A stretch of 6,275 nt of DNA from Candidatus Desantisiibacteriota bacterium (GTDB lineage Bacteria > JACRDZ01): positions 1-6,275 of the forward strand of contig JACQWU010000207.1 of the NCBI GenBank assembly GCA_016209155.1. Direction: 5' to 3'. Both the position numbers and the translations under genes were made by a program. The notes below the pieces were generated by a model, which did not search any database, was not told the origin of the DNA, and saw only the letters and a program-made list of their open reading frames with translations. Every line of letters starts with the position of its first letter. The first letter of the stretch is position 1. Positions 1 to 6,275 of this stretch are shown piece after piece.

Positions 1-1920
1 TGTTTCCACCGCAGCAAGAGGAGCTTCCAGTTTATAACGTATGCCTGGATTCATCCCGTATTGATAAATGCCCGGCTCTTTTGGTGTGGTTTTAAATATT
101 AAAGTATCAAATAAATCAATACTCTTATAAGCATATACTCCCGAAAAAGAAGTAGTATCATCAAAATAATTAGCTATAGCCCATTTATTAAATATTTCCT
201 TAAATGTTTCTGTAAAGCCATAATCAATTAAATTATCATTAATAGAAGTAACACCTTTTTCTTTATTTTTCACCAGACTATTTATAAAAGCATCACCACT
301 AAAATGATCATTAAGATATGTCAGAAACATTAAAGAAACACCGTAATCCCTGACACTATCCTTCCAGGTCAGAAGATTATCATTAGAATTTTCAAAAAAT
401 GCTTTAAGGTGGCTTTTCTGCGGCCACATACTTCTACTGCTGAGATTATTTACAACTCCCGCAAGCTCCGAACAACCTTCCTCAAGCCATAATTCCTCAT
501 CAGGATCATAAAAACCGTGAATTTTATGCTGAAATTCATGGGCTAATATTGAATAAATTGATTCCGGACCTTCAGGAAAATAAATCCCCGGATCATCATC
601 ATAATGATCGATTGTAGGTTTAGAATCTTTCAACTTAACTTTACTTGATTCATAATAAACTTTACCATGCTCAAAAGTAGGATAAGCATCAAGATATATA
701 ATTTTACGTTCATTACTATGCAAATTATTTGTCCCGTCGGGATAATCATCCATTCTTGTAGAATACCCGCCCACCCAGGTTTTATTAATCCAATTATTTT
801 TTAAAGCCAGATCATTATCTATATCCAGTAGAAATATCGTAACATGCTCATCATTGTCTAACCCTTTTTCCTGTTCCTGACCAAAGACATCCCTTGTCCT
901 CGTATAAATATTAGAACTATCTGTTGAAAATTTTGCTGCAATTTGATCTACATCCGCCCCGGTAACATATCCGGAGGGATTGACATCAGCATCGTACCAC
1001 ACATCAAGAGCCACATAAATATAAATATTATCAGTTACCTTGCGGCAGACTGCGGATGTTTGCTGCCATTTAGTATTCTGAAAAATATTCCACATTCCCC
1101 TTACCTCTCCAAGCGTATCATATTGAACCTGACCGATCATTGAAACACGCCCGCGCTTCATTAGCTCATTTCGTGTAAGAGCGCGTAAAGGCATATCCTT
1201 TAATTTTTTTTCCATCACCCAAATCACCGGAACCCCGCACGAAGCCCCTGGCAAATAAGCAATATCATCAGCATGCAACCCGCTTTTTAGCAACAAAAAA
1301 AACAATAAAAAGAATATAGAATTTTTATTAAATTTTTTCAGCTCAAACCTCATTTCCTCATTTTCATCACATTCCAATTTATTGCAGTTCCATATTATAG
1401 TAAAATCACTTTTCCCCTGAACTTCCCTGGAAGGCTTTACTTCCGGAGGCACACCCATATACCACCTTTTTTTCTCACCGCTGGACAATTTTATTATATC
1501 CATTTCAACAAATAAAATATTTATTTTATCATCAATCGAATTATATAAAGTTATCTCCATATTCTTCAATATCTTATTCCATTTCTTAGATATAGCGGCA
1601 TTCCATCTTATATTTTGAAACTGCTTATTAATCAGACTCTCAAAATTTTCTATCTTATCCTTAGAAACTATTTCCCACGACATAGGAGCAAGACTATATT
1701 TAGAAAAAATAGAAGCACTCGATAAAAAACCTGTCACCTTCATAAAACTATCCTTAAACTGCCCCATTTCATTAGCTTTCTCACCTACAAGCTGAAAGGT
1801 GATTTTATTAGTAGTCTGAATCCCTAAAATTTTTTTAGGAAAACCGCCCAGCTGAATAATTTTTCCATAAACATTAATCTTATTATCATAAATTTTTGCT
1901 TCTGATTTATTAATATACAT
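1..1920 (-). CDS. Unknown N-terminal module joined in frame to a secreted M30-like zinc metallopeptidase (partial, C-terminus outside window)
   Basis: The frame is open from 1986 to base 1 with no stop, giving 640 codons from the ATG at 1920. Residues 1-189 are an unrecognised beta-rich module. Its pattern (VYGKIIQLGG, later FQLVG, KVTGFL, SWEI) is faintly OB-fold-like. At residue 190 (base 1353) comes MRFELKKFNKN, then a hydrophobic run SIFFLLFFLLL and an LHA/DD cleavage-like site, which is a convincing signal peptide. The exported part carries TIFLLDIDND, WVGGY, SNERKIIYLDAYP and the zinc motif HEFQH (residues 461-465). WLEEG follows, with Glu481 the likely third ligand, and then CSELAG. 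That layout fits gluzincin peptidases and most resembles family M30 (hyicolysin), by recall only. Neither ATG has a strong ribosome binding site. The start at 1920 lies 28 bases after the upstream gene's stop, so the two are probably one operon. The true peptidase start could instead be 1353, giving 451 residues in the window. Confidence is high for the peptidase and moderate for the start. Confidence 0.82.
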   Translation of the reverse strand, partial: MYINKSEAKIYDNKINVYGKIIQLGGFPKKILGIQTTNKITFQLVGEKANEMGQFKDSFMKVTGFLSSASIFSKYSLAPMSWEIVSKDKIENFESLINKQFQNIRWNAAISKKWNKILKNMEITLYNSIDDKINILFVEMDIIKLSSGEKKRWYMGVPPEVKPSREVQGKSDFTIIWNCNKLECDENEEMRFELKKFNKNSIFFLLFFLLLKSGLHADDIAYLPGASCGVPVIWVMEKKLKDMPLRALTRNELMKRGRVSMIGQVQYDTLGEVRGMWNIFQNTKWQQTSAVCRKVTDNIYIYVALDVWYDADVNPSGYVTGADVDQIAAKFSTDSSNIYTRTRDVFGQEQEKGLDNDEHVTIFLLDIDNDLALKNNWINKTWVGGYSTRMDDYPDGTNNLHSNERKIIYLDAYPTFEHGKVYYESSKVKLKDSKPTIDHYDDDPGIYFPEGPESIYSILAHEFQHKIHGFYDPDEELWLEEGCSELAGVVNNLSSRSMWPQKSHLKAFFENSNDNLLTWKDSVRDYGVSLMFLTYLNDHFSGDAFINSLVKNKEKGVTSINDNLIDYGFTETFKEIFNKWAIANYFDDTTSFSGVYAYKSIDLFDTLIFKTTPKEPGIYQYGMNPGIRYKLEAPLAAVET

Positions 1921-1948
1921 ATTAGACAAAGGCTCATCAGCCGCCAGC

Positions 1949-2656
1949 TTAAAATTTAAAGAAAGGCGGGCCAAATAAATTATTACTCAGTGCCTTTTTT
2001 TCAACTTTAATAACCTCAATAACATCCTCAACTTTTTCATTATTCAAAAAAGTTGAATATCTTTTACTTAAAATTGAAAACCCGTGCTTTTCCAGAGCTT
2101 TGGCAATCTCATCCTCCTCATTACCTGCTTGAGTCGAATATAATTTTTTCATCTTTTCAATAATATTTTTCACCTCAGTCATATCCATATCATTTGTTAC
2201 CCAGTCTTCCTCAACCAATTCATTATCAACCATAATATTTATCTTCGCAACATTAAACCCATTGACAACTTTTTTCTCACTGGTTTTTATCACTTCAATT
2301 TTTTTATTTTTGATAACAGATGAAGAATCCTCTGCCGGTTTCTCCTGATTTTGCCCCGTATTCTTCATTTCCTCCTTTGCCTTTTCAGAAAGTTTATACC
2401 TGAAATAAAATTTTTTCTTATGAGAAATAAAATAACCTGTATCCTCTCCAAAAAGTGATACAGTTGAAGTCTTATTTTCCAGATCATCCATCCTCATATT
2501 ATTTCCCGAAAAAAATAAAACAGTATTTATCATCCCCTCAAAATTAGTACTCCTCTCCACCTGCTCAATAACAATTCCCGGATAAACATAAACAGGACAA
2601 ACCATAATAAAAACGATACAGTTTATCAAAAAATATTTTATCTTTAAATTTTCCAT
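1949..2656 (-). CDS. Exported DUF4412/LolA-like protein of unknown function
   Basis: This is a complete protein of 235 residues. Residues 1-26 form a signal peptide: a short basic start, the hydrophobic run YFLINCIVFIMVCPVYV, then a likely cut before GIVIEQ. The mature part begins with a strand (IVIEQVERSTN) followed by FFSGNNMRMDD, a glycine/Arg pattern, and GYFISHKKKFYFRYK. This order matches the DUF4412 group, whose members resemble the LolA lipoprotein-binding fold. A charged linker rich in Lys, Glu and Gln (about residues 90-125) leads to VVNGFNVAKINI and the DWVTNDMD segment, also usual in this group. The C-terminus (VIKVEKKALSNNLFGPP) resembles the family's normal end, so I regard the gene as intact and not frameshifted into the next one. 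It is the first gene of the minus-strand pair. The function and substrate are unknown; a periplasmic carrier or scaffold role is only an inference from the fold. Confidence 0.8.
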   Translation of the reverse strand: MENLKIKYFLINCIVFIMVCPVYVYPGIVIEQVERSTNFEGMINTVLFFSGNNMRMDDLENKTSTVSLFGEDTGYFISHKKKFYFRYKLSEKAKEEMKNTGQNQEKPAEDSSSVIKNKKIEVIKTSEKKVVNGFNVAKINIMVDNELVEEDWVTNDMDMTEVKNIIEKMKKLYSTQAGNEEDEIAKALEKHGFSILSKRYSTFLNNEKVEDVIEVIKVEKKALSNNLFGPPFFKF

Positions 2657-3383: not shown

Positions 3384-4778
3384 ATGTCTTACAAAATAAA
3401 TTTTTTTATAATTTTTATCATAATAGCGACTATTTCCTGTTCTCTGGGGTGCGGTTCAGGTTCAAAAAACAATAATTCAAAATCATCTTCATTAAATTCC
3501 ACCCCGACTCATATTTCCGGATATGGTAATTTATTGGGTAGAATATTTGATAGCGCTAAAGTTCCCGTATCTAATGCTAAAATAGAATATTCACCTGATA
3601 CATCCTCAATTAATAGCACTTATTCCGGACATTCTGATTCAAACGGTTATTATAGTTTTGAAGCGCCTCCCGGAACCGGTGTTATTAAAGTTACCGGTGC
3701 AGGCGGAACAGTGATATATGAACATATACCGGTTACAGTAGTTCAAAATGGAAATACCATAATAAAATTTCCTGAAGGACAAAAGGCCGCATTTACATTA
3801 GCACAGTTAAACACCACAATCAATGAAACAGTAACAAATAACTCCAGATGGGGAACTGTGGCGCTTACAATACCAGGCTCAACAGAAATAGTGTATTTTA
3901 ACTTTGTTATTAATGACAAATGGGTGATTAAGAACACACCCATTGAAGCACAGCCGGCAGAACAAAATGGACAAAATATAACAATCTCTTTTTCTCTTGA
4001 TCTCGGTGTTAATGACAGCACTGACGTAACATCCGCCCAGTGTTCCATGGATATTTCATCATACATTCTCGATGATAAACCGGCAGGCAAATTCACTTCA
4101 TTTATCGGAGAAGAACAATTTATTGTTTCAAGCGGAACTTATGGAATTTATGAAGATATTGAAAATGCCCGAATTTCCAATACAAATGAGTTTAAAGATA
4201 TTATGCCCGGGAAGTATAATAATGGGATGGTCTATGAATCAACGGCAAGCCATGATTTATCAAAAATTCCTAACCAGGACTGTAAAAAAAATGAATGTGT
4301 ACTTGCGGCAGTTTCCAATAGTCTAAGACTTCTAAAAAATAAATTCAAACTTAATATTCCTGAAAGTTTTATGGAAATAAATAGTCTCAAGAAACCCTTA
4401 AAATGGACGTCAGCAGGATGCGATATTAGTAAATGGATTAGTTTAAAAAGAAATTATACCTGTTCATATATTCAAACTGAAACTACAAAAGATTTCCGAA
4501 GAATATTTAAAGCGATAAAAGAGGGAAAAGATGTGGAAATACAGGGCGGTCAGCTTGACGGGAATCTTGAACATGTTGCTATGATTGTTGCAATAACTGC
4601 ATTGGATAATGGAGGTTATTCAATAAAAATTGCCGATGATACAAAACAGGACAAAGATGGAGGTTTTGTAATTCGTGAAATTAAATGGTACTGGGGTGAT
4701 AATGACATATTGCATGGTTTTTGGCCGGCACCCTATCCAATGTATTTCCGTAAATTTGTTATTGAATCCCCTAATTAA
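3384..4778 (+). CDS. Probable lipoprotein with carboxypeptidase-regulatory-like domain and C39/papain-like cysteine peptidase domain
   Basis: 464 residues, complete. Residues 5-22 are a hydrophobic export signal ending SLGC, so Cys23 is a plausible lipidation site although the lipobox is not ideal; Cys19 is an alternative. A Ser/Asn-rich linker (24-44) leads to a beta-sandwich of the carboxypeptidase regulatory-like type (about 46-128): GRIFDSAKVPVSNAKIEY, then SDSNGYYSFEAPPGT. Residues 130-260 are beta-rich and unrecognised. The C-terminal part (about 285-464) has the order of a papain-fold/C39-like peptidase: Gln298, then Cys305 at the start of a helix (ECVLAAVSNSLRLL), His397 in LEHVAMIVAI, and Asp418/Asp419 in KIADDTKQD. 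Cys300 and Cys305 lie close together; Cys305 has the better spacing to Gln298. The likely location is anchored in the envelope facing outward from the cytoplasm, acting on peptide or protein substrates that I cannot identify. It sits behind the promoter at 3085 and may have had the broken gene at 3194 as operon partner. Confidence 0.85.
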   Translation: MSYKINFFIIFIIIATISCSLGCGSGSKNNNSKSSSLNSTPTHISGYGNLLGRIFDSAKVPVSNAKIEYSPDTSSINSTYSGHSDSNGYYSFEAPPGTGVIKVTGAGGTVIYEHIPVTVVQNGNTIIKFPEGQKAAFTLAQLNTTINETVTNNSRWGTVALTIPGSTEIVYFNFVINDKWVIKNTPIEAQPAEQNGQNITISFSLDLGVNDSTDVTSAQCSMDISSYILDDKPAGKFTSFIGEEQFIVSSGTYGIYEDIENARISNTNEFKDIMPGKYNNGMVYESTASHDLSKIPNQDCKKNECVLAAVSNSLRLLKNKFKLNIPESFMEINSLKKPLKWTSAGCDISKWISLKRNYTCSYIQTETTKDFRRIFKAIKEGKDVEIQGGQLDGNLEHVAMIVAITALDNGGYSIKIADDTKQDKDGGFVIREIKWYWGDNDILHGFWPAPYPMYFRKFVIESPN

Positions 4779-5178: not shown

Positions 5179-5203
5179 ATAAAAGAAATAATATAGATCC
5201 CCG

Positions 5204-5281
5204 GTAGGACATACGTCCATGAGGTAGGAGCAATCTCCAGATTGCGATAATTTGCTCGATTAATCCTGTTAAAATCCTACC
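5204..5281. repeat. Tandem GTAGG-led palindromes with closing TCCTACC
   Basis: Two units follow each other. GTAGG (5204-5208) opens GGAC-ATAC-GTCC (5207-5218), and GTAGG (5224-5228) is followed by A, GCAATCT, CC and AGATTGC (5230-5245), a perfect 7-bp stem. GGTAGGA at 5223-5229 is also the reverse complement of TCCTACC at 5275-5281, so the second unit is bounded by its own short inverted repeat. The stems differ in sequence from the copies near 2740 and 2960, but the leader is the same. Confidence 0.65.
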
Positions 5282-5343
5282 GCACACTCGATAACGCATT
5301 GATATTTAATATTTTAAAAATTTTTATTAGTGTCAATGCCATT

Positions 5344-5366
5344 GGACAGGCGTCCCGCCTGTCTAC
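5344..5366. repeat. GACAGGCG palindromic repeat
   Basis: GACAGGCG (5345-5352), spacer TCC, CGCCTGTC (5356-5363): a perfect 8-bp hairpin stem. It is followed by TAC, as if the GTAGG leader were present in the reverse orientation in degenerate form. It is the fifth palindrome of this general style in the window. A looser GCATTGA/TCAATGC pair (5296-5302 and 5333-5339) lies just before it. Confidence 0.7.
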
Positions 5367-5388
5367 TATAGCGTCTTCAAATTTTTTA

Positions 5389-5416
5389 TTGCATTTCAAC
5401 TTTTATCCGTTATAAT
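5389..5416 (+). promoter_or_regulatory. Probable promoter of yaeQ
   Basis: A perfect TATAAT at 5411-5416 has TTGCAT (5389-5394) 16 bases upstream, matching the -35 consensus in three positions. The predicted transcript would have a leader of about 50 bases. No strong ribosome binding site precedes the ATG at 5475. Confidence 0.4.
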
Positions 5417-5474: not shown

Positions 5475-6032
5475 ATGGCACCTAAAGCTACCATCTATAA
5501 AGTCACCCTTAACATCTCCGATATGGATCGCAACTATTACGCGCAGCACTCATTAACCCTGGCAAAACACCCTTCAGAAACCGACGAAAGACTAATGGTG
5601 CGCTTACTCGCATTTGCAATGTACGCCGATGAGACTTTGGCTTTCGGCAAAGGCATCAGCGAAGAAGACCCCGCACTCTGGCTTAAAAACCTGACCGGAG
5701 ACATCGATTTATGGATAGAAGTCGGAAAACCCGACCAGCGCGTCATCACCAAAGCCTGCACCCGCGCCAAACAAGTCGCTCTTATCCTTTACGGATCCTC
5801 CGCCGATATATGGTGGAAAAATAATCATGAATCCTTAACCCATAAAACCAATTTAACCGTAAAACAACTCCCCTACGCAACCACACAGGCAATGGCCTCC
5901 ATGGCCGGATGTAACATGGATTTAAATTGCAATATAGAAGACAACCAAATCTTTTTGATGAGCGATGAAACCACTCTTGCCATAGACCCCGTAATTTTAC
6001 TCCAACCCAAAAACAAAATTCATCAAAAATAA
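5475..6032 (+). CDS. yaeQ: YaeQ family protein (PD-(D/E)XK nuclease-like fold)
   Basis: 185 residues, close to the usual length of about 180. The sequence follows the E. coli YaeQ pattern throughout: MAPKATIYKVTLNISDMDRN, SLTLAKHPSETDERLMVRLL, ADETLAFGKGIS, GDIDLWIEVGKPD, ITKACTRAKQVALILYG, and IFLMSD near the end. YaeQ proteins have a variant PD-(D/E)XK nuclease-like fold. Candidate site residues here are Glu38, Asp78, Glu82 and Lys93, all in the conserved blocks. The biological role is not settled: E. coli YaeQ was first linked to suppression of rfaH loss, and no reaction is firmly known. It stands alone, with repeats on the left and non-coding sequence on the right, and is cytoplasmic with no signal peptide. 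Its codons are far richer in G and C than those of the lipoprotein gene, which suggests acquisition by transfer or a different expression class. Confidence 0.95.
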   Translation: MAPKATIYKVTLNISDMDRNYYAQHSLTLAKHPSETDERLMVRLLAFAMYADETLAFGKGISEEDPALWLKNLTGDIDLWIEVGKPDQRVITKACTRAKQVALILYGSSADIWWKNNHESLTHKTNLTVKQLPYATTQAMASMAGCNMDLNCNIEDNQIFLMSDETTLAIDPVILLQPKNKIHQK

Positions 6033-6241
6033 CCATTCCACATTAATCATAATATATTAAATAAAAATTAACCAACATATATTAACATGCGTTTACGTCA
6101 AATTCCCCCTTCCCTTTTCTTGACTAAACTAAAATTTTTTGGTATTATTCAAAAACTACCCAATAAAATGGCATCTGAAAAAAATTAGGATTTTATTATT
6201 TTTGAAGGGAGTTATCCAAAAAGGTGCAGAAACTACTTTTC
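6033..6241. other. Non-coding stretch after yaeQ
   Basis: AT-rich sequence with no credible open frame, no clear rho-independent terminator and no palindrome of note before the dispersed repeat at the right edge. Confidence 0.5.
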
Positions 6242-6275
6242 CGTCATTCCCGCGAAAGCAGGAATCCAGTATTTA
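6242..6275. repeat. ATTCCCGC..GCAGGAAT dispersed hairpin repeat (may continue beyond window)
   Basis: CGTCATTCCCGCGAAAGCAG and the following GAATCCAG form a hairpin with arms 6246-6253 and 6258-6265 around GAAA. Seven of eight pairs match, with a C/A mismatch at 6251/6260. The same core, ATTCCC-N8-GGGAAT, defines the neisserial dRS3 repeat, and similar sequences are scattered in many proteobacterial and environmental genomes. It lies at the window edge, so its full extent is unknown. Confidence 0.7.

Follow-up and report, generated by a model that had tools for sequence, protein, structure and literature searches.

Does the long open reading frame at one end of this contig encode a single protein, in which an unknown module is fused to a secreted metallopeptidase through an internal signal peptide, or does it hold two cistrons that have run together? 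The window analyzed here is one whole contig of 6275 bases from a draft genome of 3.08 Mb (352 contigs, 79% complete), and statistics for the same genome were drawn from 60 of its contigs (569 kb). On the minus strand, as the preliminary description had reported, a frame without stop codons runs from 1986 to base 1; a TAA at 1989-1987 bounds it. The description's placement of a signal peptide at residue 190 also holds, ATG 1353 being codon 190 counted from ATG 1920, and the in-frame join of module and peptidase is real in the given sequence. The peptidase frame reaches the contig end at base 1 and consequently lacks its C-terminus; none of the other contigs of the genome matched the contig end as a continuation of the peptidase.

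The mature part of the peptidase occupies 4-1269 on the minus strand, and its earlier designation as an M30-like enzyme is confirmed by both profile and fold. A profile built from 18 sequences (A2) matches lugdulysin (7bb8) with an E-value of 2.7e-49, in an alignment that begins in the N-terminal part and reaches almost to the C-terminus. AlphaFold, run with 37 sequences, gave high confidence for the peptidase alone, beginning near residue 262 in the joined chain, and the predicted fold aligns with 7bb8/7bb9 at Z 28–29 over 301–315 residues (3.9 Å rmsd), the next entry scoring 13.5. The relation to lugdulysin in sequence and fold thus extends across the catalytic unit. The zinc-binding motif HEFQH lies at 526-540 on the minus strand (peptidase residues 272-276), and a further glutamate, Glu292 of a WLEEG motif (478-480, minus strand), follows about 16 residues past the second histidine, the HExxH and third Glu arrangement of M30. 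H272, E273, H276, and Glu292 are all invariant in the A2 and A3 sets and, by analogy with other gluzincins, Glu292 is likely the third zinc ligand.

Pfam PF10460 (Peptidase_M30) left the window protein unmatched at an E-value of 0.01 and recognized one of the 18 A2 members (E 1.4e-4). The NF045524 model (MXAN_6640 family putative metalloprotease) matches 16 of the 18 A2 members and finds the window protein with an E-value of 7.6e-06 and 25.9 bits, below its curated cut-off of 140, in what is a partial test because the C-terminus is missing; the window protein is a distant member or a neighbor of that family. Like lugdulysin (7bb8/7bb9), a family M30 enzyme from Staphylococcus lugdunensis, it has a secreted gluzincin fold of ~300 residues with HExxH and a distal Glu. 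The two share about 20% identity, however, the solved chain of lugdulysin contains nothing that corresponds to the module, and the window enzyme, unlike lugdulysin, is cut short by the contig end. We conclude that the peptidase is an M30-type gluzincin, complete at its N-terminal side from its own signal peptide on.

ATG 1353 opens MRFELKKFNKNSIFFLLFFLLLKSGLHADD, which reads MRFELKKFNKN-SIFFLLFFLLL-KSGLHA/DD and constitutes a good signal peptide, MRFELKKFNKNSIFFLLFFLLLKSGLHA (1270-1353, minus strand). Its net charge is about +3 and its core 11 residues long, and by eye it can be acceptably cleaved after Ala28. The core is followed by a lysine and then LHA/DD, and the best 19-residue mean hydropathy is 1.55. 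These residues are more in keeping with a signal that is cleaved than with an anchor left in the membrane. The preliminary description had raised the architecture of a type II membrane protein, with the module inside, the peptidase outside, and one uncut membrane segment between them. The positive charges ahead of the hydrophobic run do suit an N-in orientation, but 11 core residues followed by Lys and LHA/DD are too short a stretch, and too polar, to anchor a protein stably, and an uncut hydrophobic segment of about 17–20 residues, as in type II signal-anchor proteins, was not found. Relatives of the enzyme, moreover, carry standard signal peptides without the module, and the enzyme is complete without it. 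We found no positive support for such a tether and regard it as hardly probable at all.

Relatives of the peptidase were recovered from 45 of 366 genomes, the window's own included; a first scan of genome contigs gave no matches, and a second, alignment-based scan added 80 peptidase loci. In the first set, the hydrophobic core lies 4–58 codons past the start of the open frame in all 21 readable cases. In the second, it falls within 70 codons in 71 of 80 and at 78–108 in three; two have no clear core, and four run off the locus. Neither in frame nor nearby was the module present in about 95 peptidase relatives from many phyla (tblastn in the second set), and none of these has a module-like domain ahead of its signal peptide. 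Within the 569-kb sample of the genome itself, 70 frames have signal peptide-like sequences, among which this one is the sole clean internal case; four other internal hits appeared by eye to be membrane or Rossmann segments and were set aside. We infer from the placement in relatives that Met 1353 is the natural N-terminus of the peptidase.

These comparisons bear on the possibility of a real, fixed fusion, made as one pre-protein in which the internal signal would direct export and be cut, leaving the module in the cytoplasm as a long N-terminal extension of that signal, which may contribute to timing or folding. The codon model described below shows a continuous coding frame with no sign of decay, and a well-placed start signal at 1353 is lacking, both in keeping with such a protein. 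Against this, the fusion is seen in none of the relatives, is unique within the sampled part of its own genome, and involves a module without relatives that could show selection. We consider it unlikely, and a functional role for the fusion has no positive support. We also found no paper on such a module-peptidase fusion.

The module itself (1354-1920, minus strand; 189 codons from ATG 1920, with TTG 1929 and TTG 1974 as alternative starts) is real coding sequence. In random DNA of the composition of this 33% GC genome, 189 non-coding codons would stay open with a probability of 5e-7, and a fourth-order, three-phase codon model trained on 412 long frames from the 569 kb of the same genome favors the module frame. 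This frame scores positively in almost all 60-base bins between 1920 and 1, the other frames being mostly strongly negative, and is preferred from about 1950 through base 1. Across the junction (1396-1354) it scores 2.2 nats vs. -5.8 and -23.0 for the other two. The scores contain no signature of an indel at the junction, where the model is blind within about 30 bases. The preliminary description had offered, as its second reading, that two genes, perhaps overlapping by ATGA, were joined through a single-base indel or an assembly error. For a single indel to give the module back a stop in the ATGA frame, it would have to fall within about 1396-1354, since a stop at 1397 already closes that frame. 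The overlap is itself weak evidence for two genes, a coin flip: among 319 ATG-initiated frames of 200 codons or more in this genome, the next base is A in 160 (50%). The reading as two genes nevertheless fits better than the tether.

Translation starts in the region are poorly marked. A purine-rich GAGGAA directly precedes ATG 1353 at a spacing of 2, which is unusually close given that well-defined starts with a ribosome-binding match of 5 or more have spacings of 3–15. No convincing ribosome-binding site was identified at 1920 or 1974, which would suit coupled translation after the upstream gene. ATG 1458, in frame inside the module, has a ribosome-binding-like site stronger than any other in the region (-8.5 kcal/mol), probably by chance; as a peptidase start this codon was set aside, as 46 residues would precede the hydrophobic core.

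Separate searches with the two parts of the joined chain gave different outcomes, the peptidase having many relatives without the module and the module having no convincing ones. No convincing match to the module was found in Pfam, NCBIfam, PADLOC, PHROGs, or the PDB, in 386 genomes (including the other three of its phylum) and 8 more, in plasmids or viral contigs, or beside any peptidase relative. The sole Pfam match was to DUF6772 (0.095) and was not accepted. A match of residues 67-143 to PHROG 5304, annotated as a peptidase (0.0029), was attributed to chance, the module lacking an HExxH and the match any other support. Weak genome matches (E 0.003–0.9) were likewise judged chance; the five loci read contain unrelated-looking proteins, by eye haemagglutinin-like, tape-measure-like, TPR, and others. 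Predicted alone, the module has a mean pLDDT of 30, and within the whole chain it is mostly below 50, which leaves its fold unassigned and gives no ground for claiming a new one. The module has no signal peptide, though both neighboring genes have one. On the searches made here, it appears to be a lineage-specific orphan.

The first gene of the cluster (1949-2656, minus strand) is complete, has an N-terminal signal-like sequence, and encodes a DUF4412 protein (Pfam PF14371, E 8.2e-07, above the cut-off). The domain is present at full length, covering residues 40-231 of 235 and stopping four residues ahead of the gene's own stop; the gene lies outside the reported chain in a different frame, and 38 of its bases are shared with the module's open frame. 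A stand-alone relative in an unrelated genome (G080) can be aligned as far as residue 231 and has 10 more residues beyond it, and the DUF4412 relatives read all stand alone and end within about 10–35 residues of the same point, with no module. Because the domain fills the protein and the G080 relative ends so close to the same point, we take the stop at 1949 to be the natural one, and the module is probably not a tail that the DUF4412 protein has lost. In that alternative, a +1 frameshift at the TTT TAA stop, where AAATTTTAAG permits a slip, would have severed the C-terminal part of an exported DUF4412 protein, so that the module too would be exported. The frame overlap, the module's want of a good start, and a mildly positive score of its frame at 1948-1921, upstream of ATG 1920 (2.2 nats), are consistent with this, but the position of the domain end and the module-free ends of the relatives make it very unlikely. 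The G080 genome carries two DUF4412-like genes in tandem (L193, 662-1354 and 1480-2181; the first by eye).

Two further genes and several short repeats were noticed elsewhere in the window. A short palindromic repeat, TGTAGGGCAAGGCTTYAGCCTTGC, is present twice, at 2735-2760 and 2958-2983; its core occurs 14 times in the genome (reversed control, 0), and it looks like a dispersed REP-like element. Additional short palindrome-rich stretches at 5200-5390 and 6218-6275, e.g., GACAGGCGTCCCGCCTGTC and TTCCCGCGAAAGCAGGAA, resemble dispersed repeats. On the plus strand, 3384-4778 encodes a lipoprotein-like protein with a lipobox-like LGC and a carboxypeptidase-regulatory-like domain just below the cut-off (PF13620, E 6.3e-07); the C-terminal part has Cys, His, and Asp motifs that by eye recall papain-like peptidases. 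A YaeQ protein is encoded at 5475-6032 on the same strand (PF07152, E 5.4e-68).

We think it reasonably probable that two cistrons of a small operon have been joined by loss of the module stop, either in the organism or in the assembly. The operon would comprise two exported proteins, the DUF4412 protein and the M30 metallopeptidase, and the orphan coding segment would separate their genes. The peptidase would be an ordinary secreted enzyme beginning at Met 1353, whose signal peptide would direct Sec export and be cut after LHA. The module would formerly have been a separate, lineage-specific cistron translated after the DUF4412 gene, and a recent mutation or an error in assembly would have removed its stop, letting the two frames run on as one. 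Should the sequence be correct, a ribosome reading the module would continue into the peptidase, where the internal signal may still work and be cut, and the active enzyme outside the cell would be the same. What is observed directly is the continuity of the frame, the enzyme family, the position of the signal peptide in relatives, and the lack of the module elsewhere. An enzyme complete from its signal peptide on, a complete DUF4412 protein, and the absence of any other clean internal signal peptide in 569 kb of the genome favor joined cistrons. Counting against them, no stop separates module and peptidase as sequenced, the module frame scores as coding up to 1354, the GAGGAA sits very close to ATG 1353, and no close relative at hand has module and peptidase apart.

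An ordinary secreted enzyme adjoining an orphan frame can account for what looked, in a single draft contig, like a startling fusion; the enzyme is ordinary, and the junction mildly curious. The case warns against calling a long frame one protein, as in an automatic annotation the signal peptide, placed at residue 190 or 208, could go unnoticed and a secreted enzyme be labeled cytoplasmic. We find it quite doubtful that a lineage-specific cytoplasmic domain is truly fused ahead of an M30 signal peptide, where it would control export or hold the peptidase at the membrane. If the fusion were true, it would represent an unusual means of attaching a cytoplasmic domain to a secreted protease.
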